This document shows positions 1,232 to 56,191 of a stretch of 64,000 nt of DNA, piece after piece. Positions within the stretch are counted from its first letter, which is position 1; every line of letters begins with the position of its first letter. The notes under the pieces are model-generated. The model was not told the DNA's origin. It was given only the letters and a program-made list of their open reading frames with translations, and ran no database searches. The position numbers and the translations under genes are program-made. Source of the stretch: Chlamydoabsidia padenii (lineage: Eukaryota > Mucoromycota > Mucoromycetes > Mucorales > Cunninghamellaceae); the NCBI GenBank assembly GCA_025330725.1, contig JAIWND010000003.1:1240001-1304000 (forward strand). Direction: 5' to 3'.

Positions 1232-1243
1232 TTTAAATCCCGC
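1232..1243 (+). promoter_or_regulatory. TTCAAATCCCG-type motif (variant TTTAAATCCCGC)
   Basis: Match to the recurrent promoter-proximal motif of this window. No gene start is recognised nearby, so this copy is either chance or marks an unseen transcript. Confidence 0.3.
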
Positions 1244-2084
1244 ATTTCGATCTGTTTGAAAATTTCAGGGGCACATTTTCCCCATTTGAACGAAACTCGA
1301 TATCAATAATCAAACAGATCATAGACAGGCCAAATATAATGGGACATGCATTGAACCAGCCAAATACAGCACCCCTTCATCGACAATTAACCCTCTTCTA
1401 CACGGTCGCACCAATAATCTCACTGGATAAGAAAGTCTAAGGGGAATAGACAGTAACCAAAGGTCAGACAGGTTAGCTACTTGACGGTCATTGTTTCAAC
1501 ATTTTAAGAATCAAGTTGAGACTTATTGGATTCCAATAGGCTGTAAAACTGGACACATAGAGCCCGGTTGGGCTTGATTTGGGCTTATTGCTTAGTTGTG
1601 TAACAATGGCGCCAAGGAGCGGCATTGAAAAAAAAGGAGGCGGCGTTCGATAAGATGGAGAGAAGAAGAAGAAAAAAGGAGGCAAGTCTGGTACAAGATA
1701 TAGTCAGGGTTTTACTCTATTCTATTGCGTCAAATTGTTCTTGATACAAGTCCTCGACAAAAAGAAAAAGCAGGTAAACTTTAAAGAGACAAGTGACGTT
1801 ATGTAAAGTGGGTCAAAAAAAAGCCTAAAACCAAGAATTGAGATCCTTGTTTTTTTAAAGAGAGAAGAGAGAGAGCGGGATTATGCATGATAATTGAATC
1901 AACGGGTACTTTATTATTTACAAAAAAAAATATTAACATGAGTTTAAAGAGGGATGAGAATGAGAGAGGAGTGAGAAGGGAGAGAAGGGGAAGAGATAGG
2001 AGTATGGTAAGATATATCTAAGTAGTGTAGTAATAGTTATAGTTATAGTTATAATAATAATGATAATGCAGTATAAAAATGTAA

Positions 2085-2474
2085 TCAGATAGCAAATTCT
2101 GGAGTAACGCTAAGTCTAAGAGTTCGTTCCGGATAATCAGCAATGAGTTGTTCGATTTCCATTTGTTTAGGTGACAGTGGTTCGTCGTATCCAACAGTGC
2201 ACGTTGAGCCAGAAGGTGATAATGAGGGTAGAGAGAATCGGCTAAAGCTTGATGAGGAAGAAGAGGATCGTCGGCGGCGGGTAAATAATGATGAGAGTCG
2301 AAGTGATTGCCTAACAGAGGATACAAATTGTGATGATGATCGGCGACTTGATGTGCTTGATGAAGAAGTCAAAGAGGACGATGAGGGTCGGCGTTGGTAA
2401 TCATCTTTATGGAAGTAGTAAGACAATATTTCATCTTCTTCATGGATCATCACGTTGTTGTTATTATAGTTCAT
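2085..2474 (-). CDS. Ser-rich orphan protein, 129 aa
   Basis: Single-exon frame of 129 aa on the minus strand starting MNYNNNNVMIHEEDEILSYY. The centre (about residues 30-85) is a low-complexity Ser/Arg tract. The C-terminus is more ordered, with a segment EPLSPKQMEIEQLIADYPE and ending LRLSVTPEFAI. I do not recognise the family. Support for a real gene: a clean ATG, an exact copy of the promoter-type motif 105 bp upstream (2579-2591), and structured N- and C-terminal ends flanking the disordered middle. The Ser/Arg tract resembles a phosphorylated regulatory region, but that is inference. The opposite strand is also open over 2143-2400 because of the biased composition; I treat that as a shadow. 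Confidence 0.55.
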   Translation of the reverse strand: MNYNNNNVMIHEEDEILSYYFHKDDYQRRPSSSSLTSSSSTSSRRSSSQFVSSVRQSLRLSSLFTRRRRSSSSSSSFSRFSLPSLSPSGSTCTVGYDEPLSPKQMEIEQLIADYPERTLRLSVTPEFAI

Positions 2475-4731
2475 AGTGTATTATATTATATGTAAAAAAG
2501 AAAAAGAAAAATGAATTAAAAGAAGAAAGAAAGTAAAAAAAAATGCGGGAGATGGGCTTGGTTTTTATAATTGAGAAATTCAAATCCCGATAAACTTAAA
2601 ATCCCTGTTTTGCATGACGGGCAAGATAATGAACTTTATGAGTCTGTGCGTTTTGTAATCAATATAAGAAAGAAAAAGTAATCTCCCTTTTTTCCCTTGA
2701 GTTCCTATTCAACTCTTTTGCTTCCGTTGAGAGAAGAAGAAAAAGGGGGAAATTGGTCGTCATTGGAGACTTAGCGATTATGTATAATGCACGTTCTCAG
2801 AAGATCATCCAATTCGGTAGTCGGAGCTCAAAGAACACACTGACACTTTTTTTTTTTCAGTATGTAATAAGAGAAAAAAAAAAGGATGCTATTTGTTTGT
2901 TATTGATTTTTTTTCTTCTTATGGCACTATGAGTCTGAAATGTGTTCCGCACCATGTGTATAAACAGATGGCATGGCATCCATTCGTTGTATTGAGGAAT
3001 GAAATATTACCATAGGAGGTGATCCAAAGTAAACATAAAATCGGAGTTGTGATGCATGAATGCAAAAGGAACGTTATGATGGAACCATTCTCTAACCAAA
3101 AATCCATGGTATGTTTACGTACCGATGGCAAAGGGCGCATTTACACTTTTAGCTTTTCCCCTGATTCCTCTTTTTTAATATATGTATATAAGGAATAGGA
3201 TGATTCCCTCAGGACTCTACCTTTCCTTCTGATCCTTTGTGTCATTTCCTTATAAAGGAATAGGTAGATAGAGATTAACAAAAAAAAAAAAAAGATGATA
3301 CTCATTTGAATGTCTCACTTAAACTAGTAAAAGAGAATATCCCTCATCTTGTAGTGAAATCAGTTACTAACTCGACGACTCATATGCAGTCGAGGATCGA
3401 GAAAGAACGTTCTGTCCGCGCCCTTACCGATACGCACAAATTGAAGGGAGAGAAAAGGGGGAAAGGTCATGTGGTGAGCATTACTGTTGGCCACCACCTG
3501 CGTTGAAAAATTAACCGTGTGTTAAGATGGCACGTTTGTATTTTGTTGTTGAAAGAAAGAAAAAAGTAATGATGGCACCGTACAAGAAGATCCCCGGGTT
3601 ATAGCATCATCGGCAATCATGCATGCACAAACGTTCCTTGAAGATCATCATCATCTCGCTCTCTCTCTCTTCCTCCTTCCTCTCTTTTTCTCCCTTCATG
3701 CAGATCCTTATCTCTACTATATTTTCATTTTTCATTTTCGAGCACCTTTTTTTCATTTCATTTTCATAGCCGATGAGACAGATCATTTCATTTTTCCTTG
3801 TATGAAAGCAGGGAGAGGAAGAAGCATTTGAAATCCCCGCTTTCCTGTGTCACCTGTCAAAAATCAAAAAGGCCGAAAATAGAGTTTTTCTTTCTCAGCG
3901 TCGGGATGTGAATGAACGAAAAAAGTGCTCTCGACGCAGGGAAAGCAAGAACAAAAAAGTTATTTACCAGCATCAAGTAGGTAAATGACTGGCTGCACCA
4001 TTATTGGGGAGTCAAACATGTCTAATATGGCTATACTGATGAACAAACTCACATCACTTCTTTGGATCTCCTTTTTTCCTCGGACTATGATTTCACGGAG
4101 ATTGAAGCATGACTTGCTAGAGGCTTTGAAGCAAGAGAAAAATTTCTTTCCCATAAAAAAAAATAAGCTATATATAAGCTCGATCTCTTTAAACTTCTTT
4201 TCTACTTCACTATACTTATAATACAAGACCGCGGGGGCTAAGCAGACTATATTTGGTAAGTACAACTTTCTTTTTATTGTTTCGATCGTCATTTTTTCTT
4301 TGGTTGCGAGGATGAACCTGGCATTTGGCTTTAGCCGTCATGGCGCTGATGAAAAAAAACTAGCTACCTAAATTAAACCACTGAGCCCAAAGAAAAAAAA
4401 AAAGACAATGGATCATTTCATCCCATTGTATTGAATTGCCTATTCATCATTCTTTTGTCTTTCTTTCATAGATTTACAAAGTAGCCTGTTTAGATGAATA
4501 GTATGTTTTAGGTTAGATTGTATTTAATAAACTACCAGAATTGATTGATACAATAATGACAGAAATGTGATGAGAGTGGGCGCGCTAAGGGTTCCACTAG
4601 ACTGGGAATCTCACATCGTCCCTTATCGGAATTTGAAAAGTGCTACTTCAATTGATCCACTTTTTCTTTTCCCTTTCTTTCCTTTCCCGTATATGATACC
4701 CTTTTTTAAATCGCACTCTATTCGGAACAAG
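2475..4731. other. long intergenic region
   Basis: About 2.2 kb between divergently transcribed genes. Apart from the motif at 2579-2591 I see only short shadow frames and A/T or pyrimidine runs (for example 3656-3705). A motif variant TTTGAAATCCCCGC occurs near 3827-3840, about 900 bp from the next start. No RNA gene was recognised. Confidence 0.45.
2579..2591 (+). promoter_or_regulatory. TTCAAATCCCG motif
   Basis: TTCAAATCCCGAT, 105 bp upstream of the orphan gene start at 2474. Confidence 0.45.
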
Positions 4732-5707
4732 ATGGTGACCAAGAAACGTAAAGTCGTATTACATTATCATGACATTATGTTGGAAGAAACAGTAGGTCAA
4801 ATATACGATCAGCGTGGATTTAGTTATATCACTAATCATGACTTCTTGCTTCTTTTTCTTCTGTCTTTAGGATATGGCTACTTTAGAAGAAGGTCAATGG
4901 CTAAACGATAATATCATGTCCTTCTATATGGAATATATTGAAAGACAAGTGATACCAGGTGACAGTAATGATATGTTACTATTACGTCCCACCATGTCTC
5001 AACTTATTGCCCACACTCCTGGTAAAGCTCATACGATAGTATAAAGAAAAAAGAGTTTAATAGATTAACAAGCTGTTTTTTATAGGTAACCCAAAGGATC
5101 TCATAGGTGTATTGCCACCCCATCTCGATAAACGGCGACTTATCTTTGTACCTATCAATAATGGCACACCTGAAACGGCGAACAATGGCACTCACTGGTA
5201 AGTCACCAAGAATGAAAAGAAAGCAGTGAACTGACTTGCATCTATCTAGGGCCCTTTTGGTATATTCTCGACCGACAAATACATTCTATTACTATGATAG
5301 TTTGCATTCGACCAATATTGAAGAGGGACGGAACACTTCGAAACGAATGATCTCCTTATTTGGCACCGGGAAGACTTTACTTAGTAAAGTCAAACCACCT
5401 GATTTTATACCCCTGTCGACACCACAACAAAGCAATGGGACTGATTGCGGATGTAAGTTGTTACTAATCAGAAATTGTATATACTCATATTAAACCTTTT
5501 TGTTTTTCAAATATAGTAATGGTGATTGGCATCATGGATTGCTTAATTCATCAGACTATGAAATGCTCCACTGACGACGCTTTACAAATCGGGAATCCTA
5601 ACCAGGTACGACCACCCAATGAAACTCGGTCCTTATTGAAGTCTCTTATTCGCCAGGAACAACGCAAATCAAAACAATGTAGACCTCTTGGTGTAGATGT
5701 TACTTAA
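4732..5707 (+). CDS. DEN1: NEDD8-specific cysteine protease (Ulp1/SENP8 type)
   Basis: C48-family deneddylase that processes or removes NEDD8 (Rub1) from cullins. Five exons (4732-4791, 4871-5021, 5086-5197, 5250-5452, 5517-5707) give 238 aa in one frame. Visible signatures: the N-terminal EEGQWLNDNIMSFYMEYIE, the catalytic His segment NNGTHWALLVYSR, the Asp segment FYYYDSLHS, and the nucleophile segment QQSNGTDCGLMVIGIMDCL, so the His/Asp/Cys triad and the Gln of the oxyanion hole are all present. The size and the order WLND ... GTHW ... DCG fit NEDP1/SENP8 better than the larger SUMO proteases. An upstream in-frame ATG at 4567 would add an unrelated leader; the ATG at 4732 places the protein start where family members begin. 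I am sure of the family; NEDD8 rather than SUMO specificity is inferred from length and similarity. Confidence 0.9.
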
Positions 5708-6376
5708 TATAATATTTGTAGATAGTCTTTCGTTGGAGGAACGGGGTGGGGGATAATTTAATGCTGTATATAATATCGTGTCTTAAATAAAGTCATACTT
5801 CATTTTTATCCTTTTATGTCAATGACGTATTGATCCAGACCAACCAGTCCAATTAGACCACATATGTTATGTACACTATGATAGGCATATACTATCCTTT
5901 TCACAATGGTAAAGGCACTGGTAACTTGTTTTTATTTTATTTTAAATTTCGTATTATAGGACGGTGATCATCCAAATACACTTGGTACGTTGGCTTGCAC
6001 TCCACCAGTGGCACAATTTTGATCTGTTCAAGGATCGCCCAAAATTCAAGTTACCCCCGAGGCATGAATTGTATCCTACTGTAGATGAATGGGATGACCA
6101 CCCATTATCCTTCCCAAGGAGAAATCAAGTCATGATATTAAATATTTGTATTTTATCATCCAGACAGATGCTAGCCACGGCAATGATCATCATCTTTCTT
6201 TGTCTATTAAACCACCATCTTCTAGTTTACATACAAGTCCCCACAATAACCAAAGCCATCAACAACAAATATGAATTTGTACGCCAAATATATTTATTCA
6301 AAATAACAGATACCCGCAATAAGCTATGTCTAATACTATACTATATATAAAGGGGGGGGTAGGAGTGGGACTATGT
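5708..6376. other. intergenic region with one unexplained open frame
   Basis: Between the convergent deneddylase and STE24 genes. A plus-strand frame from about 5961 reads WLALHQWHNFDLFKDRP and ELYPTVDEWDDHPLSFPRRN, which looks like protein, but there is no ATG, and the intron needed to continue it (6129-6163) would be only 35 nt. It could be a fragment of an older gene. A (TA)-rich stretch and a G run at 6351-6359 precede the STE24 stop. Confidence 0.3.
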
Positions 6377-7831
6377 CTATAATTCCTTCTTTGATTCTTC
6401 AGGTACAGCGATAGGCTTGTCAGAAGTAGGCTTGACACCAAGTTTGTCGAGTCGTTCAGTCAAAGTAGGGTGAGAATTGTTCCAGGCCGAGTACCAAGGG
6501 TCCATGTTGAATCCGCCCAGGTTCTTGGTACTTAATTTGATAAGAGCACTACGTAATTTGGAAGCAAAGCCGAGCTTGAGAGCAAAGGCATCTAAATAAA
6601 TAAGGGACACGAGTATGCATAAGATGATTGTTTGTAATTGACATTGACGTTTTTTGTTTACCTGCTTCATATTCGTTCTTTCGTTGATAGACATGCATCA
6701 GGAAACTGATGGCGCTGTCGACCGGGGCATAAACACATTGGAACAAGACAAATCCAATCAAAGCAGGAGTGGTGTGGAAGCCAAAGTCGTGGTAAAATTT
6801 GGTATTGTGGATAAAGAAGGAGAAGAACCAAAACATGGTGACGGCATAGAGTTGAGTGACAGCCAAAAGTTTCAAAGTATGACCCATCTTCCAGTGTCCC
6901 AATTCATGTGCAAGTACCGCGCAGATTTCATCATTATCCGAGTGATCAATCAAAGTATCATAGAGGACGATATGCTTGTTCTTGCCAAAACCATAAAAGT
7001 ATGCATTAGAGTGCCCAGATCGTTTGCTACCATCAATCACATAGAGTTTCTTCAAAGGGAAAGCAATACGAGCAGCCAATGCTTCAATTTGAGTACGGAG
7101 TTCGCCTTCTTCCATTGGTGTCAGTTTATTAAAGAGAGGTTGGATCACGGTGGGATAAATCATGATCAAAAACAATTGAAAGACCATTCTAAATAGACAT
7201 AATAGTGAGTAATGTGATGAGTGATATGCAAAATAAACAAATAGTCAGTTTATGATACCTACAATAGAATCCAAATGTATAAAAAGAAGTTATCACCAGT
7301 AGATTGCATCACCCAAAGACATGCCGAAATCAAGGGACACAACAAGACAATCATCACCAGTTGATTCTTGAGAAGATCCGACAAGAAGATACCAATGGTC
7401 TGTTTGTTGAATCCATGTTTTTCTTCCACCACAAAGGTAGAATACAAAGAGAAGGGAAGAGAGGTAGCAGTGGAGAACCAGCTGAATAGGATGGAGAACA
7501 CCAATGATTGTACGATCTATCAACAAATAAATAAACAAAAAGATATCATCAGTATCACTATTATCATTGCACAAAATCTATGCGTACTTGATATTCAGAC
7601 CCAAGACCACCATAAGTTTCCATCAAACGACCAGAAGTATACCAAAGCCAAGCCATACCATCATAATGTAAAATAGCCACAGATTCAATTTGCTTAACAA
7701 TGTCGTGAACAAACCCAAATTGAGACTTGTCCAAGTTGTAACTTTGTGCCTTTTTAAAATCTTGTTCCGTCACAATATCAGCTAGTTCTTTTGGGCGGTC
7801 GCGCATGAGATAGCGACGATATTGACGATAG

Positions 7832-7868
<37 letters not shown>

Positions 7869-8041: not shown

Positions 8042-8121
8042 TATGGATTAGATTGATGGAAAGAAAAGAGGAGCAGAAAAAAAGGAGGGCAAAACATTTT
8101 TTTTAAAAGTGATTTTATCAT

Positions 8122-8134
8122 TTCAAATCCCGCC
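8122..8134 (+). promoter_or_regulatory. TTCAAATCCCG motif in a divergent promoter
   Basis: TTCAAATCCCGCC lies 81 bp upstream of the STE24 start (8041) and 96 bp upstream of the EIPR1 start (8230), near the centre of their shared 188-bp intergenic region. Confidence 0.5.
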
Positions 8135-8229
8135 TATGACAAATGATCGGATCTGATTGGCTCAGTAGAAAAAAAAAGGACAATAAGGAAACTTGTCGTA
8201 TTTTCATTTTCTCTTTCTTTCTGACATTT

Positions 8230-9707: not shown

Positions 9708-10172
9708 ACGATAGAATAGATTTTACCCATATACCTTGTACTTGTTTCATTAATTAATTAAATAAAATCAACAATAAAATATACGATGTTTAAAAGTGGT
9801 TGAAAGAAATGATCAAAAGCAATCATACATAGGAAAAGAAATCAAACAGCCAGTTACATGAATTATTTGATTATATAACCGTTGCAGCCTGGCTGACCAC
9901 ATTGGTAGTGGCGGAAGGAGGACGGAAAGAAGACTATGAAGGAAAAAAAAGTTGTCAATCAGCGTTGCGAAATGATAGCTTGTGAGAATTAATGGTGAAC
10001 CAATCATTCAAATAATGGATAAAGATAGGAGGTGGTCAGTGCTGAGGAAATCGTACGATTTTTAGGATTATGTCTAGATGTAGTCAATCAAATCAATAAA
10101 AAATAAGTAATACGAAAAGATGGGATCTTTATTAAACGTCAAATGGTTATGGTATATATGTTAAAAGCCAAG

Positions 10173-10427
10173 CACCAAGTCCCTTGTATCAATTTGTTCA
10201 AAGTTGCGATGACTTTTACCATGAAACCCACTTCGTGTTCAAACCCCGCTTTACCTTCATTCCTTACTAAGATTTTGGATGGGCTCTCCTCGCTCCATTG
10301 TTAAAGGATGCTGATGATTAAAGTGGTGATGTGAACACTATAACACATTTACAATATATTTTACCGCAAAATTTAAGCGCCAAGATCCTTGTGTCAGTCT
10401 GTTTAGACTTGCAATGACTTTTACCTT
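10173..10427 (+). repeat. dispersed repeat, locus 1 (two head-to-tail partial units)
   Basis: Two related segments in the same orientation. The 3' cores at about 10173-10220 and 10380-10427 share the pattern CCTTGTRTCARTYTG then YTTGCRATGACTTTTACC. Between them lies a unit body that starts with TTCAAACCCCG (10239-10249) and contains CTCCATTGTTA and GATGCTGATGATTAAAGTGG. The same order and sequence recur in reverse orientation at 35482-35895. Copies differ by many substitutions, so the family is old. Translating the body gives fragments shared with the second locus, but this copy has stop codons. Confidence 0.7.
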
Positions 10428-10943
10428 TCCTTTGCGACCAAGATATTTTTTTTTCTATGATAGACGGAATAAAACTTCATTTTCAAACGCCGAATACCAA
10501 AATTCAATGCGCCTAGCAATTCCCGATTTGGAGTCATGATCATGGAGGGGAGGCGTTGTCAGTTGTAGAACCCAAATGGTCGGCACACCCTACGGGCGCG
10601 GACAACATCGACGTTTCAAAAAGGTTGTTTAAAAAGCCTGATTGATGATCAGCGTGAATGGATTGTTTGTGAATAATGAGCCCGACTCTCATTGTATCAA
10701 CTTTTATTCTTCTACCATTTCCCCATTACTGATTTGACAGGTGTGGTTCTTTAGTCGAGATCACATGTGCTAGCTGACTATTTGCTTTCTTTTCCTTTGT
10801 ATTATTGCTTTGACTCAATCATTTAACCTATGTTTAAAACACTGCCTATTTTATTATTACTGTTTATTTCAAAATTTGGTGAAACATATCGTTCCTTTTT
10901 ATCCAACAACTTGACTGTTTGAGTGTATTAGACGACGACAATG

Positions 10944-10956
10944 TTCAAACCCCGAT
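10944..10956 (+). promoter_or_regulatory. TTCAAACCCCG motif variant
   Basis: TTCAAACCCCGAT, 316 bp upstream of the IPK1 start. Confidence 0.35.
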
Positions 10957-11271
10957 ACAGAGGACACATTATTTTCATTTCCATTGTTTTGATATAAAGG
11001 AAAGAGTAGATTCCGGCCATAAGAAAGCGCAGCCAAAAGAGAATCTACTCCACGAGACAAAAATTATGCGCCCGATATGTCTTGATTGCCATACCGCAAG
11101 AATACATGGATTCTTGTCATATATCGAAAAAGAACAAGGCCTCCAGACGAAATTGACACTCCGACCAGAGCTTGACATTTTTCATGACGCGCCCTTTTTA
11201 AAGAACTGGAAATGAAAAAAATCTGACAGTCAAATTTCTCCATCTCCTTCTTCTTCTTCAACTTGTGGTTG

Positions 11272-13491: not shown

Positions 13492-13504
13492 TTCACATCC
13501 CGAC
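13492..13504 (+). promoter_or_regulatory. motif variant TTCACATCCCGAC
   Basis: One base different from TTCAAATCCCG; about 1 kb upstream of the homeodomain gene. Confidence 0.3.
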
Positions 13505-14209: not shown

Positions 14210-14222
14210 TTCACATCCCGCC
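14210..14222 (+). promoter_or_regulatory. motif variant TTCACATCCCGCC
   Basis: One base different from TTCAAATCCCG; 257 bp upstream of the homeodomain gene start. The same A-to-C change as the copy at 13492. Confidence 0.35.
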
Positions 14223-25614: not shown

Positions 25615-25627
25615 TTCAAATCCCGAC
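25615..25627 (+). promoter_or_regulatory. TTCAAATCCCG motif
   Basis: TTCAAATCCCGAC, 173 bp upstream of the EF-3 start. Confidence 0.5.
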
Positions 25628-25951: not shown

Positions 25952-25964
25952 TTCAAATCCCGAC
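25952..25964 (+). promoter_or_regulatory. TTCAAATCCCG motif
   Basis: TTCAAATCCCGAC, 153 bp upstream of the proposed SPT2 start. Confidence 0.5.
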
Positions 25965-29730: not shown

Positions 29731-29743
29731 TTCAAATCCCGAT
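29731..29743 (+). promoter_or_regulatory. TTCAAATCCCG motif
   Basis: TTCAAATCCCGAT, 110 bp upstream of the CDS1 start. Confidence 0.5.
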
Positions 29744-29867: not shown

Positions 29868-31706
29868 CTATAGAGTAGGATCCATTTCATCCAAATAAGC
29901 CTGATGGGAGGCGATGATGTTTGCCACACGGCGCATGTTGACAACGCTTGCTTCTTTATAATCCTCAAGATCTTGTAAACATTGTTCAACCTATACCAAA
30001 AAAAAAAAGTATGTGTCAGTCCCCCAACCACCCTTGCCTTTTCTTTTTCTTTTAATACCTCTTGTTCCAGTTCAAGTGCTTTAGCGGCATAGTCACTTGC
30101 TTCTTTACGCACTTGCTCCACTTCTTGTTCCATTTTCATGTCCTTTTCCGGTAGTCGAGTCATATAAAAATTCATGGCTTCGCGTTTCTTGTCCTGCATG
30201 TTCTTTAAATGTGTGATTTTGGCAACTATACCTTTGATCTTTTGTTGTATACGCTATATCAAGAAGAGTAAGTGACATGTGTTTCATAATATTTTATTTT
30301 TTTCTTTTTACCGTTTTGAAAGCAGCCAGGTCACCCGCACCGGACTTTGCAATCACTTGTTCAATATCATTCACCTTGATTTGCCATTCTTCTAATATCA
30401 TTGTTTGTTCTTTAAGTTCTTTGCGCATCTTGACCAATTTGGAGACTGTGTCAAAGACAGTTGATTCGGTTTCCAATAATTTTTCCATGTCTTCGTTTTT
30501 CTGCTTGATGCTTGCAATAGCCGCTTTGTTTTGTTCGATGAGATCCTCCGTTTCCTTCATTTTCTATTAAAAACAAAAGATTGAGTGGGTTATTATTCAT
30601 ATTTCTTTCTTTACCTGCTGCATTTCTGTAAAATCCATCTCTGCTCTGGCTTTCAATGCACTGAATTCATTGTTCAATTCCATCGCAGTAAATTCGTGTG
30701 TTTTCTATTGGAGAGAGGAAGATTAAGTATGATGTGTGATAGGTTTCTTTTGAACTTACTAATATTTGCCGTTTCACTGATCGAAGAACCTTGAGTTGAT
30801 CAGCTTCCGCTTTGTATTGTTGCACCAATTTTATATCTTCGTCTATCGAGTGTCGACATTGTTCAATGTGTTCTTCCAGTTCTTCCAATGATGGGGATAC
30901 TTGATTAAGGGCCTGCCTATAAAGAGTATATCACAATAAATCCACCCGTTCATACTATCTCTCTCTCTTTTTTTTTTTTTTCTTTCTATTATCGACTTAC
31001 CATGAGATTTCATAATTCCGATTTGCTTCATCTATAGCATCCTGTACCTTTTCAGTTTCCAGCAGAATGTTTTCCTACACACAGACACAAAACAAGTTTA
31101 GTGGCTCAAATAAGTTAATCTAACATTTGACTTACCTCTTTGGCCGCCTTTGTCTCAAAGTGTTGCCAATTGGGATCACATATTTTGACATAATTGATAA
31201 CCACACTTAACACTTTTGCCACGCTTGCCGGAGTCGGTTTTATAACATCGCGTACTTGCAATTCTCGATAGCCAAGAATAGAGAGAATGTTATGCCTATT
31301 TAAATAAAGTAAGAGGGTGTGTATATGTTTATATGTGATTAAACACTTTTTTTACTTACATGCCTTCCCAGATTAATGTACCAGAGAGTTGGCCCTACCC
31401 ATTAACGAATGAGTACACCTAGTTGATACCCCCCCTTTTTTTTTTTCTTACCTGAAAGTCATCCGAGTCTAACGTGATTAGATTTTCCCAAGAAAAAACC
31501 AGTTCCAGGATAACCGCATAAAGTGCACACACCCGTTCCTTGGTTGGCTGTAGCAAATCTTCTTCCTTGATTCTTATATTCAGTTCCGCCAGGCAATCCA
31601 AGATTTCCAATGTTCCCAAGGATGGTACTTCATAAGCAACAGGAGAATCATTGTTGTTTTGAAGAGTCGATACCCGCCTATTTGTGCTGAGCCGTTGGGT
31701 ATTCAT
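29868..31706 (-). CDS. NUF2: kinetochore protein Nuf2
   Basis: Subunit of the Ndc80 complex that links kinetochores to microtubules. About eight or nine short exons. The N-terminal calponin-homology-like domain shows VPSLGTLEILDCLAELNIRI and KERVCALYAVILELVFSWE, then GYRELQVRDVIKPTPASV and INYVKICDPNWQHF. The rest is coiled coil (e.g. LEELEEHIEQCRHSIDEDIK, EQNKAAIASIKQKNEDMEK, MKMEQEVEQVRKEASDYAAK), ending AYLDEMDPTL. The order CH domain then continuous coiled coil, and the length near 440 aa, fit Nuf2. Internal exon borders in the coiled coil are less certain than the ends. A motif copy lies 90 bp upstream, in the region shared with the divergent RPA49 gene. Confidence 0.88.
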
Positions 31707-32095
31707 GTGGGTACGTTATTGAAAGAAGAAAAAGAAAGGATAGGGAATGAAAAAATCGCTCTGGTTTTCAAAAAAAAAAAAAAGTCAAAGTCAGATTCAA
31801 ATCCCGTCAGTTAGTTCTCCACAAACATACCAACTTTCTTCAACGTCCAAATCATACTAGTAGAATATGTAAAAAGTAGATTACGATTTTGATCAAGGTA
31901 GTTTTTGGGTGTTTCTTAATGTCGGACAGTAACAATGCCCACTGAAATAGGGCATCTGTACCTGAAAAGAACGACAATGCTCTTGTCCAAAAAAAAAAAA
32001 AAAAGGAAAGCGGGCCTTAAACTTGGAAGAAAACCAGTCTCTCATTTTTTTTTCACTCTTTCTTTTTCTTCCACTTCTTCCACACGATTACAACC
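31707..32095. other. divergent promoter region NUF2 / RPA49
   Basis: 389 bp between the two starts; contains the motif at 31796-31808 and A/T runs, and a pyrimidine-rich leader before RPA49. Confidence 0.5.
31796..31808 (+). promoter_or_regulatory. TTCAAATCCCG motif
   Basis: TTCAAATCCCGTC, 90 bp upstream of NUF2 and 288 bp upstream of RPA49. Confidence 0.5.
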
Positions 32096-33553: not shown

Positions 33554-33672
33554 ATAGATAAATAGATTCCATTGCCTCCCCCCCCTCCCCTTCTTACATA
33601 CACCATATTCCATTATCTGCATTTTTTATGAATAAAAACCATCTTTATAAAACCATGTTTGATTCTTGTTTT

Positions 33673-33684
33673 TGAAATCCCGAC
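33673..33684 (+). promoter_or_regulatory. motif variant TGAAATCCCGAC
   Basis: 97 bp upstream of the peroxin start at 33782 and about 120 bp after the RPA49 stop. Confidence 0.4.
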
Positions 33685-35264: not shown

Positions 35265-35481
35265 TTAGTTTTAAATCATAATAAAATGATTATTTTTAAT
35301 ACTTGTCATCGTCAAGGGGGGGGGAATGGTGTGTAGGCTTGCCTGGAACTTTTTTGTTGTTTCTCCATTTAGGATAGGTATAGGTCAAGCATAATAGCTT
35401 TATTTTTGTAAAACATAATAAAACATGTCTTGAATCTCACTCGTGATGATTTTTGTTGGCACAAATTATTATATAGATAGT

Positions 35482-35895
35482 GCAGGTAAAAAGTCTTTGC
35501 AAACTTGGACTGACTGACACAAGGGTGACTTTTGCGCTGGAAATATGTCATTGTATCCACATGGCCACTTTCACCATCCATTGACAGTAGAGCCCTTACC
35601 AATTCTGACGGGCGGGGTTTGAAAAGAAATTCGCTTCCGTCTGTAAGAAATAAAAGAAAGCTTTATCCCACTTTTTCTTGCCAATGACAGGTAAAAGCCA
35701 TCGCAAGCTTAGACTGACCGACACAAGGGTCTTGGAGTTTGGTTTTTGCGGTAAAGTATGTTGGAAATATGCCATGGTGTCCACATGGCCACTTTCATCA
35801 TTAGCATCGGATAACAATGGAGCCAGTGGAGCTCTTTCTAAATTTGACTAGGACCCTCTAACATGACATTGTCCCCGTGGTTTGAACCTTTTAGG
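35482..35895 (-). repeat. dispersed repeat, locus 2 (two head-to-tail units)
   Basis: Read on the minus strand, two successive units occur: about 35895-35694 and about 35625-35482. Each begins with a TTCAAACC-type segment, runs through CCATTG(TTA) and GAAAGTGGCCATGTGGA, then CATATTTCCA, and ends with ACCCTTGTGTCRGTCAGTC and TTTTACCTG. The order matches locus 1 at 10173-10427. The second unit is shorter by an internal loss. In translation both units give R-A-x-L ... ESGHVDTM(A/T)YFQ, with mostly silent differences over that stretch, so a decayed coding exon is one explanation; a short interspersed element is another. Confidence 0.72.
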
Positions 35896-36043: not shown

Positions 36044-36055
36044 GCGGGATTTGAA
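36044..36055 (-). promoter_or_regulatory. TTCAAATCCCG motif (reverse)
   Basis: GCGGGATTTGAA, 81 bp upstream of the MED9 start; a second half-match follows 13 bp later. Confidence 0.5.
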
Positions 36056-36136
36056 TAAACTAAATCTTCGGGATTTTAAAAAAAGTAAACTGAACCGTTC
36101 CGCCTTTTTTTTTTTTTTTTACTTTTTCCAGACGCC

Positions 36137-40902: not shown

Positions 40903-41248
40903 GGAGGGAAACAAGATGGAAATCAAAAAAAAAAAAAAAAAAGAGAAAAGAAGGATAGATCAATGGGATTTATCAGATTAGTTCAGATCGAAACGGGAGG
41001 TTTATCCTTTGGCCGAAAACGAAATGACGAGATGACAGTTATCGGGGTTTTAAAAACACGTGGGGGCAAGTAGTAAAAATAGTCTTCACAATGCAACCCA
41101 ATGATAGTTAATTAAAAAGAGATAGACAAGTTTTTATTTTTATTATGATTTTGATTAACAAGATAAATAATCTATAGCTACTACATATACGCGGAAGGAG
41201 TTGGAATCTAGTGGTCAAGTCAAATGAAACAACCCTGGGTCGGCGATT
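40903..41248. other. intergenic region upstream of the CotH gene
   Basis: 346 bp between the CotH start and the 3' end of the phosphatase gene. Contains a motif variant ATCGGGGTTTTAAA at 41041-41054, about 140 bp upstream of the CotH start. Confidence 0.45.
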
Positions 41249-42298: not shown

Positions 42299-42310
42299 TC
42301 GGGGTTTGGA
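42299..42310 (-). promoter_or_regulatory. motif variant TCGGGGTTTGGA
   Basis: Weak match, 47 bp upstream of the PPN2 start. Confidence 0.25.
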
Positions 42311-42322: not shown

Positions 42323-42324
<2 letters not shown>

Positions 42325-42381: not shown

Positions 42382-42382
<1 letters not shown>

Positions 42383-44380: not shown

Positions 44381-45174
44381 GAGGATGAACGCGACTTGAA
44401 ATAAGTAAATGTATAGGTGTATATATATAAAAAAGGAATGGAAAGAGGAAGAGTGGAAGAAAAAAGAAAAAAAAAAAAAAAGAAAAAAAAAAAAAAAAAG
44501 AATTGAAATGGTTTTCGACTGAGGATCATCGTTTGAAATCCCGTCGGTCATAAAAATCCGATTTTCTCCCTCTTCTCTGTCCATTCAACAACGAACTATT
44601 CTTATGGATTCTCTGCGTACAAGAACAGATGGGTTCCTTATATGAATATAGCACATTGATGTTTATCTTTGGTAAGGGGGCCGGTGTTTGGAATATTTAC
44701 ATTAACCCCCCCTTCGTTTGATGCCTTTCTCACCATAAACATCTAACAAATTATCGACAAGAACTAGGGGACGGGTGTTTCTTATTACATTCCATCGGCT
44801 GGTTCAACTATTGATTGGCCTTCCCTCCCTTTAGAAATAGTGGTGCATGTACCAATAACACCTATACATAGTCTCTTCCTTAATATAGTTTGCTGTCATC
44901 ACTCTTATTACATCCCACTACAATAAAATACGTATGTCTCTTTATATTATTATTGTTCGCTTAAACTTGTATGTTAATGGTGGTGATGCATACGGTGGTG
45001 ATATGTAAGAATACCGTCCAATGAAAAGCATTTATGTCAGACTCCGTTTGATAACCAGCGGAAAAGCAATCATCCGTTCCGCATCAACCAATAAGGTTGT
45101 AGTATTTATACGGCTAAATAATTTTCCGTAATTGCATTTTTAACATTAACATTTAGATAAAAACACCGATCGTA
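44381..45174. other. intergenic region AP-1 mu to tRNA-Gln
   Basis: Apart from the motif at 44532 and A tracts at 44469-44500 nothing is recognised. AT-rich TATA-like stretch GTAGTATTTATACGG precedes the tRNA by about 70 bp. Confidence 0.45.
44532..44545 (+). promoter_or_regulatory. motif variant TTTGAAATCCCGTC
   Basis: 152 bp upstream of the AP-1 mu start. Confidence 0.45.
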
Positions 45175-45246
45175 GGCTTTGTGATGTAATGGTCAGCATA
45201 TGAGACTCTGAATCTCATTATCCGAGTTCGAGTCTCGGCAAAGCCT
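45175..45246 (+). tRNA. tRNA-Gln(CTG): tRNA-Gln (anticodon CTG)
   Basis: 72-nt cloverleaf without intron. The acceptor stem GGCTTTG pairs with CAAAGCC. The D arm holds GATGTAATGGTCAGC. The anticodon stem TGAGA/TCTCA encloses loop CTCTGAA with anticodon CTG. The T arm is CCGAG-TTCGAGT-CTCGG, giving a strong B box. The discriminator base is T and a TTTT terminator follows at about 45250. It decodes CAG. Confidence 0.95.
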
Positions 45247-45303
45247 CGCTTTTCGCATTTTTTGCATTGGAGCGGCATTTAAAAATATCTCATACACGTT
45301 TCC

Positions 45304-47225: not shown

Positions 47226-47238
47226 GACGGGATTTAAA
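47226..47238 (-). promoter_or_regulatory. TTCAAATCCCG-type motif (TTTAAATCCCGTC, reverse)
   Basis: About 70 bp upstream of the proposed RPS5 5' UTR donor. Confidence 0.4.
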
Positions 47239-48627
47239 AACCATCCATTATTTGAAATGCCGATTGAAGGTGCATTGATGTCCATTAAGGATGTTGGCTC
47301 TGGGAAACCTTGGCATGAAATAGGCATGGTCGTTTAGAAATATCAACTGGAAGCACTTGACATGATGTTTGGATCAACTGTTTTCTTCACTGATATCATA
47401 TATCAGGGGTTCAGATAAGAGTGGAATCAGATACAAAAAAATGGTAACCATCTGGAACAGAAAAGTCGTCAGTGAACGAAAAGTCAAGTTCATTTTGCAT
47501 AAAAGAGCTTTGCTATTTCTTTCAACCTTCTTTGAGGGATGCTATTTTGGTTGATCACTTATTGGAATGAGAAGATGACCAATACACCTGTTTTGAGAGG
47601 GATGAGTGCGACTTGGGTTGTCAACGGCAAGTTGAAGATATGTATGACACTTCCACATAATAATAACTGAATTTTCATTCTCCGCATATATAAATGAAAA
47701 GGGGTTATAATCATTGATGCTTTTTCAGAAACTGACAAGAATATCAAACGTATAGTTATAATAAATACAATTCTTGAGATAAAAAGATAAAACCTACGTC
47801 TAAAAAAGATTGGTTGAGAAGGTAAAAAGCTACAGCCAGACCAACACAATGAAGGGTATATGGTCTACCCTGATTATAAACAGTTAGTTGTATTAAAGTC
47901 AAAAAGAGGATGTTCAAACAAATGTTTTATTAATTAATAAGAGTCCCAAACATAATTCTAATCTATCTATTCTACCCAGATTCAAATAAGCGGTTGTTTC
48001 CAAAGTTTCCATGATGGTGCCTGCATAGTTGTGCCGAGTGACATTGTATGTGTTCAAGGTCCAGAAGCCGAATCATATGTCTAAATCAACGTATTCTTCT
48101 TCTTGTGGTGCCGAGTGATGATTGTAAAAGAGACCCCGCTATAATTCATCCGTTTGCTGATTTCCAAGGGGTAAACTTTACAGGGTAGAAGATAAAGCTG
48201 TGTTTAATAAAGACACAGAGAGTTGGGTCCTAGGTCAAAAATGCTAATGGGTGGGAAGCAAAAGGATTCTTTTGTATAGTTGTCAGTAGTGTCGATTGCA
48301 TAATGGTGGTTCATGCTCCTGTTACAAAAAGAGACAAACTTGTAATTTCTTGGTCATCGTTCCTATCAAGTAAGAGTGAGTTTAAGTACCTTGTTTTTTT
48401 TTAATTACCTTCTTACTTGTGTCAATGTTCCTTGAATGTGAGAGAGTGGTTGTTATATTTAGCTGTATAGAGGAAAGAAAGAAAGAAAGAAATAAAAAAA
48501 AAGGGGGGGGGGAGAAGGTACAAAAGTTAGCTGATATCTGTCGGCGTTTGAAACTACCAGATTATTTGGAGAATCCGACCATTCTTTGCTTTTTCTTCTT
48601 CATATATCTCCCTCTCATCTTTATAGA

Positions 48628-51556
<2,929 letters not shown>

Positions 51557-51865
51557 ATGAAACCCCTCCCTCTCTCTCTTTAGGTATAGTCTTAGCTTAT
51601 ATTATTATCTTTGCCTTTATACACATACACGTTTTTTATTTTTATTTTTACCAAGTATCATCTATCCTCTATCAAAATAGCCATTCGATTCTTCAATCAC
51701 ATGATGATCGAAACAACTATTTGTCTGGCTCAATATTCTCCCCTTGGTCATTCCTTCCCCACATTTTTTTAATTTGATTTCCCGATTAATAAAAATGGGG
51801 CTCTACTCAAATTTTTACCTTCTCTCTTTCTCTTTTATCAAAAGTCTCCCCACTCATCTACTGCC
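51557..51865. other. intergenic region SEC23 to crotonase gene
   Basis: 309 bp; a partial motif-like GATTTCCCGATT occurs near 51776, about 80 bp upstream of the next start. Nothing else seen. Confidence 0.4.
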
Positions 51866-52675
51866 ATGTCTGAAGCGCAAATTCTTGTTAACGTTAACAA
51901 TCAAGTGGCTACCATCACCCTCAATCGACCCAACAAAGGCAATGCACTCACGGCCACTATGAACAATCAACTTCTTGACATTCTACCAAAACTAGCCGCC
52001 GATCCTAACGTCCGAGTGTTGGTACTCACAGGTGCGGGGAAATACTTTTGCACTGGGATGGATCTATCAGCCTCCTCAGCCGACGGCAGTGTCGACCTGG
52101 ATGCGATCAAGACGGGATTCCTCAAAGGTCTGGATGTATTCGACAGTCTGTATCGCTTCCCCAAGCCTGTGATTGCGCGTATCAATGGTCCTGCATTTGG
52201 TGGAGGAGTGGGTTTGGTGTTTACGACGGATATCCGGGTGGCCACAGACAATAGTTTCTTTGCCCTGACCGAGGTCAAGCGTGGGATCATGCCGGCCATC
52301 ATCTCACAATACATTGTGCCTGAACTGGGTGCTCAACGTGCACGAGAATACATGTTGACGGGTCGTCAAGTACCCGTGGCCGAGGCAACGTTTATCAGCA
52401 AAAAGGTGCGCAGTGCCGAATTGGATCAAGCTGTCAATGAACAGATCAAATTCTTGGTAGATTCTGCTCCTGGTGCAATGGCTAATATCAAACGGTTGGT
52501 GGATGTGGTGGCCAATGGTGCTCAGGCTGATCGTTCAGACAAAATTCGACAATATGTGCAACAAGCTTACTTGGAAATGATGCAATCGGATGAAGCCGCG
52601 TTTGGGATCATGTCTTTTATGTCTAAAAAGAAACCCGACTGGAATCAATTCTTGCTGGATAAAGCCAAGTTGTAG
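51866..52675 (+). CDS. peroxisomal enoyl-CoA hydratase/isomerase family protein
   Basis: Crotonase-fold enzyme of 269 aa in a single exon. Visible: ATITLNRPNKGNALTATMN, RVLVLTGAGKYFCTGMDLSA (first oxyanion-hole loop), RINGPAFGGGVGLVFTTDI (second), and FALTEVKRGIMPAIISQYI with the catalytic Glu. The protein ends AKL, a canonical PTS1, so it is likely peroxisomal, acting in fatty acid or branched-chain acyl-CoA breakdown. The TEVxxGxxPAxIS pattern resembles hydratases of the methylglutaconyl-CoA or LiuC kind more than enoyl-CoA isomerases; the exact substrate is not certain. Absence of introns and a base composition richer in GC than its neighbours are unusual here. Confidence 0.87.
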   Translation: MSEAQILVNVNNQVATITLNRPNKGNALTATMNNQLLDILPKLAADPNVRVLVLTGAGKYFCTGMDLSASSADGSVDLDAIKTGFLKGLDVFDSLYRFPKPVIARINGPAFGGGVGLVFTTDIRVATDNSFFALTEVKRGIMPAIISQYIVPELGAQRAREYMLTGRQVPVAEATFISKKVRSAELDQAVNEQIKFLVDSAPGAMANIKRLVDVVANGAQADRSDKIRQYVQQAYLEMMQSDEAAFGIMSFMSKKKPDWNQFLLDKAKL

Positions 52676-53044
52676 TATAGTATAGTATAGCTTGGTAGTA
52701 GTAGGTTTTAAATTTATTTATGTACTCAATAAATAAAAATGAATCTTTTCATCATAATCCAGATCTGCAGGGTTGAAGTGGCACGGGAAAGGTGCTATTT
52801 TTAAAATCCCGCCCAAAAACGACCCGACAATTACTTTTTTTTTTTTTTTTCTTTTTCTTTCTCATTCTCTTTTTTCTTTTCTTCTTCTTCCTTTATCCCT
52901 TATTTTGACCCATCCATTTTTTATAACTGTATAGTTTATTGACTTCTTCTTTTTGATCTAGTGGAAGACAAACTCCTTATAGAACATATACATACCGATC
53001 ACCCTCTTACGTAGTCATCTTTTTTATTTGTTTAACTCACCCTA
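52676..53044. other. promoter region of VTS1
   Basis: 369 bp with a motif variant at 52801-52813 and a long T/C-rich stretch (52835-52900). Nothing else seen. Confidence 0.45.
52801..52813 (+). promoter_or_regulatory. motif variant TTAAAATCCCGCC
   Basis: 232 bp upstream of the VTS1 start. Confidence 0.4.
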
Positions 53045-54998
53045 ATGTTACCTTCTAATTTCAACACACGCAACACAAGACCAGTGTCTGAAATTCTCAA
53101 ACCTGGTAACTATACCTCCTCAACTGAAAGTAAGTCTACTTTGGATCTCTCTAGGTTTGTGTACTGATTGTCTTTTTTTGTAGATGACTCTTTAAACCTT
53201 TGGTACGATGACTTGCAACAGTATGAACGGAACTTGGATGAAATGGCAGCGGCTAGCTTGGATCAAGTAAGTGTAATTAAATAGTAGTATAGTATGGAAA
53301 CTCACATTTACTTTTTTATCTTGTTAGAATTTTAAAGAAGAAATGCATCATGTTGACCAATGGTTTCGATTCCTCTCTGAAGCAGAACGCACGGCCACCA
53401 TCTATACTTTACTGCAACACTCGTCACAGGTCCAAATACGATTCTTCATCAATCTTTTACAACAAATGGGAAAAAGGGACTCGATGCACTCTATCTTGAT
53501 GACACCTACACCAGACCATGGTAAGTAAATAAAAGCGATCAAGGCATTGACTAACTAAATATAATATAATAATAGTTGATATGCAATCACAATTTGCTGG
53601 AGCACTTGCCAAGGCTGAAATGGAAGCAAGTCAACGGTTGATGTCGGTGTTACCTTACAAGACTGGACAAGTAGTCAGTCGACCTCCACCAAGTACTGCT
53701 CGTCGACAGGTGGACCGTCATTCTTTTGCACTTGGTGATACTGAAGATTACAGCAGACAATTTACTGGTGGTACTCGATTCAATGAAACATCATCATCAT
53801 CATCATCATCGTCATCATCGAGATTAACAGGACGTCCAACGAGTCAAAACTTTGGTGGGGCCAATACTTTGTTAACACCGGGCACAAATCCTTTCCATAC
53901 GAATGGCAATAATCGTCCTCGATCTGTGATTGAAGGTGACACGTCTACTTTATTCTCAACTCCTTGGTCTACTACTCCGACAACTAGTGCAACTTCTTCT
54001 CGTCGTCCAATGTCGGTGGTTGGTAATATCGGTGATCGTAATGGTGCTAGTTTGGAACGACCCAAATCAGCTGATGTATCTAATTGGTCATTTACTGGTG
54101 GTATGGAATCCATGTTGGATCAACAACAACAGCAACGTACTGGGAACACTACTTATCCTTGGGCTTTAGGATTGGATTCTGATATTGATTTCAGCTCCTT
54201 GACTTTACAACCTTATGTTCGTCGTGGAAACAATAACACCAATAATAATAGTAATAATAATAATACCAATACCAATAATAACACTAATGGGATGCGTGGC
54301 GCTGGTGTCATGCGAAACTCAATCCCTGGTACATTATCCGAATCTGATGAACAGCAACAACCTTCATTAAGAACACCAACCATTTCACGACCTACATCTC
54401 CTCGACCTATCTCCTCCTCCTCCACACCTTTTAATCATCGAAAACATCTTGTCCCTCCCGGTATGGAAAAACAATTTGGTCAATTCTTGAACCCTTCCGA
54501 ACATCCTGTGGACTCGACCGATCATGATTATCATAGTGACCATAGTGAAGCATCTCATGTTTCCAATCGACGTGTATCCGGTGCTAATCTTCGTGGAAAC
54601 AGCAACTTATCTTCCACCAAGGAAAAAAAGGCAGGTGAAGGTCTTGATCTAGAGCTACTACAAGGTAAACCTTTCTTCCTTCCAAAAAAAAAAAAAAAAA
54701 AATAGGATTCCTCACTGATTTTTATACATTTTATTTTTAGATGTCCCTGCTTGGTTCAGAAGTCTTCGTTTACACAAGTATAATGCGATCTTTGAACCTA
54801 TGAAGTGGCAAGATATCATCAAGTTATCGGATGCGGAATTGGAAGCCAAAGGTGTGGCTGCATTAGGTGCCAGGCGCAAAATGCTCAAGGTTTTTGAAAA
54901 CATCAGGGCTGAATGTGATGAAAACGTAAGTATCAGTATGAAATCGTCCTCTTTAGCATACTGATTTGCCTTTCTTTGTATAGAATATCGACTACTGA
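53045..54998 (+). CDS. VTS1: Vts1/Smaug-type SAM-domain RNA-binding protein
   Basis: Post-transcriptional regulator that binds Smaug-recognition hairpins and recruits deadenylases. Six or seven exons, about 550 aa. The conserved N-terminal block reads [20 protein letters not shown], then [20 protein letters not shown] and [14 protein letters not shown] long disordered middle is rich in Ser, Asn, Gln and Thr with trinucleotide-like tracts (Ser run near 53790-53820, Asn run near 54230-54290). The C-terminal SAM domain contains [40 protein letters not shown] and [17 protein letters not shown]; the last exon adds NIDY. The pairing of the N-terminal block and SAM domain is specific to Vts1. Confidence 0.92.
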
Positions 54999-55296
54999 CA
55001 TCAATGATACCAACCCGATTCTTCCCTCTCCACCCTTTGAAAGGTTACTAATCAATTGGATTGATATCCCCCCCCCTTTACACACATATAGTTAGTTAAT
55101 TCAGCGCATGGTCCGCTTTAATACTTTTTATATGATCACTTTTTTATTTATTTATTAATACTATGTCTAAATAAAATAAAAACCATCCAAACGGATAATA
55201 AAGTGGCAATACATATGAATAAAATGTTGAAGGACACGTTTGTTTATTAGAGGAATGGATTTACACTATAATTAAAAAACGGGACATTCGTTGCAT

Positions 55297-55615
55297 TTAT
55301 TTCTTGGCAGCAGCAGCAGCGGCATTGGCCTTGAAGGTACCCTTCTTGGCGAAGCGTTGGTTACGAAGGAACTTGGCATCCACCTAATCAAAAGAGTGAG
55401 TCATTTAGAGTGTGATAAAAGCATACATGACAAGATGGTACTTACACCCTTGAGAGAAGGATACTTGTGTTGGCGGGGCTTCTTGATACCGTTACGATGA
55501 GCCTTGCTGTCTAATAACAAGATAAAAAATGTCAGTGGGAAAAGGGTTTGCAGTAGGAGTGTTTTTTATTCATTTTACTTTGGTTGTGGTTGGTGTGGTT
55601 CTTTGACTTGGCCAT
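55297..55615 (-). CDS. RPL29: 60S ribosomal protein L29 (eL29)
   Basis: Small basic ribosomal protein of 62 aa in three coding exons: MAKSKNHTNHNQ, then NSKAHRNGIKKPRQHKYPSL-KG, then VDAKFLRNQRFAKKGTFKAN with an Ala run and final KK. The sequence matches the family along its length. Exon 1 is 37 nt. The 5' UTR is probably spliced: a GTAAGT donor at 55752-55747 and an acceptor at 55631-55630 define a 123-nt intron carrying an ATCC repeat. No other start is possible in frame. Confidence 0.96.
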
Positions 55616-55666
55616 GTTGATTCGTTAACCTATAAAAAACAGTTGGAGTAGAAAAAAAAATCAATA

Positions 55667-55694
55667 CCCATCCATCCATCCATCCATCCATCCA
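55667..55694. repeat. (ATCC)n tetranucleotide repeat
   Basis: About six to seven ATCC units inside the proposed RPL29 5' UTR intron. Confidence 0.85.
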
Positions 55695-56178
55695 AGATGA
55701 TACTTATAGGATGGATCAGCAAGGTTTTTCTTTTTGGGCGATGGCCACTTACCTTTCAAGGATGAAGTTAAAAAGAAGGAGCTCAATGATGAAAACATCA
55801 AAGGGATCCACATACCACCCTGTTTCGGTTGCCGCTTGTCGGCGATAGAATTTTGAAATATAAAGTCCGCTTTTTTGCATTGACCTCTCAGAGCCCCGTG
55901 TTAATAAAATCTATCTATCAGCAATGAAGGGAAAAAATAAAAAGCATACCTGAATGTCAACTACCGTTCGATTGGAACTGGGTACAGCTTGCTCGAACAT
56001 GTGTAGGATAGAACATTATCATTATCTAGTATACTATTTAATATCGTCGTCGAAATAAAAATCTATCTTTATCCTTCCTTTGTATTGATTTATTAGTACT
56101 GTATATCATAGCAGTGATACTATTTAGTCCCCCCTTGTACCGCCCTTGATGGTGCATGAATTTGATAAATCCATTAGT

Positions 56179-56191
56179 GGCGGGGTTTGAA
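56179..56191 (-). promoter_or_regulatory. motif variant (TTCAAACCCCGCC, reverse)
   Basis: GGCGGGGTTTGAA, 74 bp upstream of the first GH8 gene start. Confidence 0.4.

Follow-up and report, generated by a model that had tools for sequence, protein, structure and literature searches.

A 64,000-nucleotide stretch of the genome of the Mucorales fungus Chlamydoabsidia padenii (C23:1240001-1304000 in our contig numbering, here called the window) carries repeated copies of a short sequence, TTCAAATCCCG, in front of genes with unrelated products. This motif is abundant, has a rigid bipartite form, sits in promoters and is indifferent to orientation. It is near-universal among the genes of a 314-kb sample, its pairs are spaced on the scale of a nucleosome, and it forms the best-conserved part of a dispersed repeat of ~240 bp, which we call R240. 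One motif at so large a share of sampled promoters, together with a spacing rule, is unusual, and among the matches listed in our search of the open-access literature we found no description of it in any fungus. We propose, with a probability of roughly 0.6, that WTTTNAAAYSCCGMY is the predicted site of one abundant general regulatory factor (GRF) with nucleosome-barrier or nucleosome-positioning activity.

A rigid motif in great excess

The parent genome that we searched comprises 34,228,448 bases in 95 contigs. Analyses that depend on genes used a 314-kb sample made up of the window, C1:1-200000 and C23:1190001-1240000. A splice-aware hidden Markov model gene finder, written for this analysis and trained on the same DNA, placed 126 genes in that sample, with 174 kb of coding sequence (CDS), 43 kb of intron and 97 kb of intergenic DNA.

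A first-pass annotation of the window had listed seven exact copies of the motif and ten variants, and had judged such a word to be far rarer by chance. All seven copies are present, although the reverse-strand one lies at 36045-36055 and not at 36044, and 0.04 are expected in the window from 100 shuffles, the largest of which held 1. The ten variants are there too, each within 0-2 bases of where it had been placed. With up to one mismatch to TTCAAATCCCG allowed, the window holds 24 sites, compared with 1.57 expected and 4 in the largest shuffle. Genome-wide, the exact motif occurs 3,811 times (1,909 on one strand and 1,902 on the other), and the same letters read backwards, which served as our control, occur twice (1 + 1). 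The looser form TTNAAAYNCCG occurs 12,858 times (6,420 + 6,438), and its reversed control 247 times (130 + 117). Because the exact and the loose counts both far exceed their reversed controls, a chance origin of the motif is excluded, and the genome-wide density check that had been recommended comes out clearly in its favor.

An iterated matrix converged on the consensus W-T-T-T-N-A-A-A-Y-S-C-C-G-M-Y, which gives a motif of 13-15 bp. Its two parts, TT.AAA and CCG, show strong coupling when exactly two bases separate them (133 cases, versus 0-12 at the other gaps within 0-12), and this fixed gap argues for one rigid recognition surface; the information in the flanks falls to about zero past 3-4 bases from the motif. 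The motif is also the top over-represented intergenic word at lengths of 8, 9 and 10 (264 kb of the sample, low-complexity words excluded). When a matrix trained on contig C1 was applied to C23, it found 64 sites in intergenic DNA, 8 in introns and 3 in CDS; one trained on C23 and applied to C1 found 132, 8 and 21, respectively. The reversed matrices found 3 and 3 intergenic sites in the same cross-test.

Sites lie upstream of most predicted genes

Taking a matrix score of at least 11 to define a scored site, we obtained 257 sites in the sample. Intergenic DNA holds 212 of them (2.2/kb; shuffled intergenic DNA gives 9.2 sites), introns hold 17 (0.39/kb), and the remaining 28 fall in predicted CDS (0.16/kb). 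Site density peaks at 4.7-4.8/kb between 50 and 150 bp ahead of predicted start codons, and it is 0.64/kb in the 50 bp before the start codon and 0.5/kb in the first 100 bp past stop codons. Gaps between convergent genes carry 0.7-1.1 sites/kb, versus 2.1-3.0/kb in other intergenic gaps. Relative to the gene, 93 sites lie in the same orientation and 99 in the opposite one, so that, as far as placement goes, either strand serves.

Sites are found near nearly all genes that have room for them. Upstream intergenic stretches of 300 bp or more precede 95 genes. For 91 of these genes a site lies no more than 1 kb away (for 86, a repeat-free one), and 84 still show a site of any kind when the distance is cut to 500 bp. 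When the requirement is relaxed to at least 150 bp of upstream DNA, a site lies within 500 bp in 96 of 117 genes. Sites precede most sampled genes irrespective of gene function, and enrichment at the promoters of unrelated genes with depletion in coding DNA is the pattern by which a general regulatory factor is recognized.

These figures bear on several first-pass claims. An estimate of about one copy per gene was right or low, given 212 intergenic sites for 126 gene models, and the statement that copies occur on either strand relative to the gene is borne out. The avoidance of coding exons holds as depletion and fails as true absence. Equal density in exons and 3' regions, which had been named as grounds for abandoning the idea, is not what we find: the densities in CDS and after stop codons are unequal to that of intergenic DNA. 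The preference for a general promoter factor over a pathway regulator fits the presence of sites upstream of most genes of any function.

A second rise in density is seen at 300-350 bp upstream of start codons (4.8/kb; 3.5/kb without repeats). It may come from missed first exons or from the second member of a pair.

Paired sites are spaced on a nucleosome scale

Among unique sites in the sample, 17 pairs lie 200-250 bp apart, compared with 6.5 expected, and pairs at 50-150 bp are scarce (6 versus 16.9 expected). Genome-wide, we counted facing pairs of the form AAATCCCG-gap-CGGGATTT by their inner gap over the ranges 29-89, 90-120, 121-181, 190-220 and 251-311 bp (gaps of 182-189, 221-250 and >311 bp fell outside the search); the reversed controls gave 0 in every range. 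Fifteen pairs have gaps of 29-89 bp (2.5 per 10 bp) and 2 have gaps of 90-120 bp (0.65 per 10 bp). The 121-181 bp range holds 30 in all, of which 18 lie at 162-181 bp (9.0 per 10 bp), the rate at 121-161 bp being 2.9 per 10 bp. A further 29 pairs lie at 190-220 bp (9.35 per 10 bp), and 19 lie at 251-311 bp (3.1 per 10 bp). With pairs taken as independent, the 190-220 bp range differs from 251-311 bp at p = 0.0002 and from 90-120 bp at p = 5e-7; the 190-220 and 90-120 ranges were picked from the sample histogram, and the 162-181 sub-bin was defined post hoc from the listed coordinates. Near-duplicates include two pairs at 162-181 bp, one at 121-141 bp with one at 142-161 bp, and two at 251-311 bp, and at least 2 of the 29 facing pairs at 190-220 bp contain R240-like letters. 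In the opposite pair arrangement, 28 pairs have a gap of 190-220 bp genome-wide, at least 6 of them with R240-like letters.

The non-divergent (tandem plus convergent) gaps of the sample show the same preference, with 16 pairs at 150-250 bp, 1 at 60-150 bp and 4 at 250-350 bp. The excess at 150-250 bp is therefore not merely the size of divergent promoters. One nucleosome occupies 147 bp, and a pair frequency that is highest where the gap just fits one nucleosome and declines on both sides suggests two barriers that may enclose a single nucleosome.

Base composition around the sites is also ordered. A-runs lie on the 5' side of sites and T-runs on the 3' side (1,275 versus 518 bases), an asymmetry of 757 compared with 58 +/- 144 in a same-gap null (largest of 300 draws, 628). 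Between paired sites, A/T runs are about half as frequent as outside (5.7% versus 10.1%). In the sense of the gene, the T-runs fall between the site and the start codon; pyrimidine stretches occur near fungal start sites. Yeast-like poly-T/poly-A flanks are ruled out by this arrangement, which is in the reverse order. In yeast, promoters with poly-T and then poly-A have the most robust nucleosome depletion, and mouse and human show the opposite trend, according to the available part of PMC4212969.

A putative nucleosome-barrier factor

If our proposal is correct, a single sequence-specific protein would bind WTTTNAAAYSCCGMY at most RNA polymerase II (Pol II) promoters in either orientation, and the bound protein would form a fixed boundary for nucleosome placement that keeps the start region open. 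Two such sites would bracket ~160-220 bp, room for one nucleosome, and the site would presumably be needed for expression.

Several observations weigh against this proposal. The gene models are home-made and predicted from sequence alone, and they may include false exons. Among the 117 genes with at least 150 bp of upstream DNA, 21 lack a site within 500 bp, and these comprise 5 models of <120 amino acids and 16 larger ones. To our knowledge, none of the general regulatory factors described so far serves more than a minority of promoters. Sample pairs <25 bp apart are in excess (9 versus 2.6), and facing pairs are about as common at 29-89 bp as at 251-311 bp (2.5 versus 3.1 per 10 bp). The avoidance is therefore specific to ~90-120 bp, and a plain exclusion of gaps smaller than a nucleosome does not predict how frequent the 29-89 bp pairs are. 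A few pairs are near-duplicates of one another or lie within R240, and the stretches enclosed by paired sites show no clear gain in G+C over the DNA outside (AT of 0.628 versus 0.639; n = 27). Finally, the order of A and T tracts is opposite to that in yeast, and a yeast-like depleted region therefore cannot simply be assumed.

We also entertain a broader version, in which one factor would mark nearly every Pol II promoter and site pairs would frame the promoter nucleosome array genome-wide, in the manner of CTCF or Reb1, with R240 exploiting or spreading the motif. This version is tentative, and we rate it as somewhat less likely than not. The promoter logic of early-diverging fungi is little described in the literature that we found, and the motif provides a direct handle on the putative factor. 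Removal of that factor would test whether one protein can organize promoter chromatin genome-wide, and the motif itself could help to annotate gene starts and to design expression tools for Mucorales.

The same placement would be expected if the motif were the site of a general transcriptional activator, of the Sp1, ETS or NRF1 type, that brings in coactivators and plays no particular part in placing nucleosomes: the motif is promoter-proximal, orientation-independent and near most sampled genes. By itself, however, an activator does not predict the peak of pairs at 162-220 bp or their scarcity at 90-120 bp, and we consider this explanation unlikely, if still a serious contender. Near-universality in the sample would also follow if the basal machinery, perhaps through an extra Mucorales copy of TBP, recognized the motif as a core-promoter element, and the part of PMC4133162 available presents duplicated TBP as a characteristic feature of Mucorales as a whole. 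The position of the motif, however, spreads over ~100 bp, and its orientation is indifferent. Core elements are normally oriented and fixed relative to the start site, and we judge this alternative improbable.

The motif within the dispersed repeat R240

R240 is a dispersed repeat whose units follow one another in tandem at a period of ~240 bp. It gave 30 matches at 12 places, 23 of them near full length, with 1-4 units per place and a predicted intergenic position at all places. In the window, nhmmer located one partial and one near-full unit at 10157-10441 (+) and two units at 35477-35851 (-), of which the one at 35673-35851 is without a scored motif. A further place outside the window is L012:2760-3693, and nine others lie in the 314-kb sample. 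The units share a mean identity of 62% (range, 44-94%) and apparently form two sub-families; a second conserved block reads GATGCTAATGA. A search of Rfam at the gathering threshold returned no family in the R240 places, and R240 may be a non-coding RNA, an element like a miniature inverted-repeat transposable element or a regulatory array.

A scored motif lies in, or no more than 20 bp from, all 23 near-full units, and 3 of the 30 matches are without any. Across a 259-column alignment of the 23 units, no 13-mer is better conserved than the motif (1.63 bits versus a mean of 1.09), with the caveat that ten seed units were picked by motif, which may favor its conservation slightly.

This association raises the question as to whether the sites are simply carried along by, or left over from, a family of dispersed repeats or transposons, given that repeat matches surround 62 of the 257 sites, in part through R240, and that every near-full R240 unit has a scored motif in or close to it. 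The other 195 sites have no repeated flanks within the 314-kb sample, a scope in which a repeat that is single-copy in the sample and present elsewhere would be missed. When all repeat-flagged sites are removed, the promoter peak is kept, at 4.7 and 4.4/kb at 50-150 bp; the flagging is over-inclusive, as the exact sites at 25952 and 29731 were flagged too. Flank information drops to about zero within 3-4 bases, and nothing in R240 is more constrained than the motif. For the latter reason, it is more likely that the repeat bears a useful site: R240 carries the site, and the site is not an apparent by-product of R240. A repeat origin of the sites therefore seems to us highly improbable.

Separately, AGAGCTCT is likewise over-represented in the intergenic DNA of the sample. 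Most of its copies are found in R240-type places, with a motif at a distance of 32-36 bp.

Known recognition sequences

An attractive match by eye is a DREAM/MuvB-like hybrid, in which a CHR (TTYRAA) would abut an E2F half (CCCGC): TTTGAA beside a CGGG-like part resembles the CDE/CHR elements of E2F and LIN54. The available parts of PMC3093354 and PMC4974476 report E2F/DP and LIN-54 sites next to each other in worm and human. E2F/DP winged-helix domains occur at six places in this genome (on C7, C56, C19, C67, C1 and C8; L026-L031); by score, these are perhaps three of each kind, which would imply duplicated genes. A CXC-domain search gave no candidates, but its control matched in 0 of 14 genomes, so that this negative carries no weight. 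The hybrid fails on its base requirements. E2F needs a strict GCG core, as stated in the portion of PMC4862756 at hand, and at 156 unique intergenic sites TTYRAA is present in 77, the E2F-required C in 69, and both in only 32. Neither word alone is enriched in the intergenic DNA of the sample (5 versus 6.9 expected for the E2F word TTTSSCGC and 670 versus 732 expected for the CHR word TTYRAA). Moreover, DREAM sites serve cell-cycle genes, whereas the motif lies near most genes. With base requirements and gene range both different, the hybrid has very little chance of being right.

The first-pass annotation had likened the motif to the TFIIIC B box (GGTTCRANYCC) and had suggested an extra-TFIIIC or insulator-type site. 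The insulator part of that suggestion is strengthened by the nucleosome-scale spacing; the extra-TFIIIC part and the resemblance itself find no support. The motif does share the string TTCAAATCCC with tRNA B boxes and extra-TFIIIC sites, and we take its letters to match a tRNA T-arm. Some of the listed papers with this string concern tRNA, judging by their titles, the others being on unrelated subjects, and the shorter word GTTCRANYC is enriched 2.7-fold (15 versus 5.5), which counts against rejecting a B box. The motif nevertheless mostly occurs without the preceding GG, and it has no fixed C. GG precedes TTC in 27 of the 3,811 exact copies and is absent in 3,784, and the full GGTTCRANYCC was found 0 times in 90 kb of intergenic DNA, versus 0.3 expected. 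At the 156 unique intergenic sites, T or A comes before the string in most cases, with G at -1 in 8, and the third base is C in 80, T in 37, G in 23 and A in 16. A B box requires C at that third base, and we give this explanation almost no credence.

Consensus words of other factors were compared as site sequences, not as proteins. Those of Reb1, Abf1, Cbf1, Rap1, Tbf1, Rsc3 and Mcm1, as well as K50-homeodomain, forkhead and TATA words, gave ratios of 0.4-1.8 versus 47 for the motif. The Mucorales N6-methyladenine (6mA) motifs given in the accessible part of PMC11258239, VATB and AAAACA, also differ from it. As a separate observation, TATAWAWR is enriched between genes (337 versus 186 expected).

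Sites and genes of the window

The seven exact copies lie near predicted starts. The copy at 2579-2589 (+) precedes a predicted minus-strand gene (2085-2474), whose start is 110 bp away. That at 8122-8132 (+) lies between a divergent pair, an M48 (Ste24-like) gene on the minus strand and a WD40 (EIPR1-like) gene on the plus strand, at a distance of 86 bp from the start of the former (8041) and of 16 bp from a start predicted on the opposite flank. A copy at 25615-25625 (+) precedes the start codon of EF-3 (25442, -) by 178 bp, and 25952-25962 (+) is 259 bp upstream of a predicted plus-strand start (26216). Two more lie at 29731-29741 (+), 115 bp upstream of a CTP-transferase (Cds1-like) start (29621, -), and at 31796-31806 (+), 95 bp upstream of a predicted minus-strand gene (29868-31706) that the first-pass annotation had named Nuf2. 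The seventh, at 36045-36055 (-), is ~86 bp ahead of the start of Med9 (36137, +), and a one-mismatch site, TTAAAATCCCG, lies 24 bp from it in the same orientation at 36069-36079 (-).

The first-pass statement that nearly all copies lie 50-260 bp upstream of a start codon holds for 11 of the 17 sites then listed. The six exceptions are all variants: TTTAAATCCCG at 1232-1242 (+), 370 bp upstream of a predicted start; TTCAAACCCCG at 10944-10954 (+), 323 bp upstream of one; TTCACATCCCG at 13492-13502 (+), 982 bp upstream of one; TTCACATCCCG again at 14210-14220 (+), 264 bp upstream of a homeodomain gene; TTAAAACCCCG at 41043-41053 (-), 308 bp upstream of a predicted minus-strand gene; and TTCAAACCCCG at 56181-56191 (-), inside a predicted gene model with an uncertain 5' end. 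The other listed variants are TTGAAATCCCG at 33672-33682 (+), 105 bp upstream of a Pex24p-like gene, and at 44533-44543 (+), 158 bp upstream of a minus-strand adaptor-subunit gene; TTTAAATCCCG at 47228-47238 (-), which forms a back-to-back pair with TTGAAATGCCG at 47252-47262 (+); and TTAAAATCCCG at 52801-52811 (+), 239 bp upstream of a predicted plus-strand gene.

Sites beyond that earlier listing include, besides the one-mismatch site at 36069, a variant at 3902 (-); TTCAAATTCCG at 4627-4637 (-), 60 bp upstream of a predicted plus-strand gene; TCCAAACCCCG at 42300-42310 (-), 54 bp upstream of a predicted minus-strand gene; TTCAAACGCCG at 48542-48552 (-), ~228 bp upstream of a Sec23/24-family gene; and TTGAAATGCCG at 61194-61204 (-), ~73 bp upstream of a predicted minus-strand gene. 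Copies of TTCAAACCCCG at 10238-10248 (+) and 35613-35623 (-) fall within R240 units, and TTCAAACGCCG at 10482-10492 (+) lies just past such a unit and is flagged as repeat-flanked.

In ten stretches of the window, Pfam matches included EF-3, M48/CAAX peptidase, CTP transferase, Med9, homeodomain, WD40/EIPR1, Sec23/24, RNA polymerase I A49 and Pex24p. Two clathrin-adaptor subunits had Pfam matches, one just under the cut-off and one just over. The best-named relative of a window enoyl-CoA hydratase is an Absidia repens protein (81% identity), with other Mucorales next; an EF-3-based search of genomic and viral contig collections confirmed no relative's DNA. The window also encodes a tRNA-Gln (CTG) at 45175-45247 (+) and a U11 spliceosomal RNA (Rfam RF00548, 64.2 bits) at 11023-11199 (-), the latter pointing to a minor spliceosome in this fungus.

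Comparison with known systems

The nearest near-universal signal of an early fungal lineage that we found is that of Microsporidia, and it is built differently. In the available part of PMC2803860, CCC/GGG-like and AAATTT-like signals likewise stand before most genes and likewise combine a C/G run with A/T parts; the CCC-like signal lies immediately upstream of the coding start, in genes whose 5' untranslated regions are <7 nt. The C. padenii motif, in contrast, peaks 50-150 bp upstream, is rigid and 13-15 bp long, and occurs on either strand.

Budding-yeast GRF sites, such as those of Reb1, Abf1, Rap1, Cbf1 and Rsc3, are likewise short and lie in the promoters of unrelated genes. They help to set nucleosome-depleted regions, a role that the C. 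padenii motif may share. The motif differs from them in its sequence, in its larger share of promoters and in its nucleosome-spaced pairing. GRF repertoires have been replaced between fungal lineages, as the available portion of PMC2897762 describes; since such factors have been exchanged between yeast lineages, a lineage-specific GRF in Mucorales is plausible.

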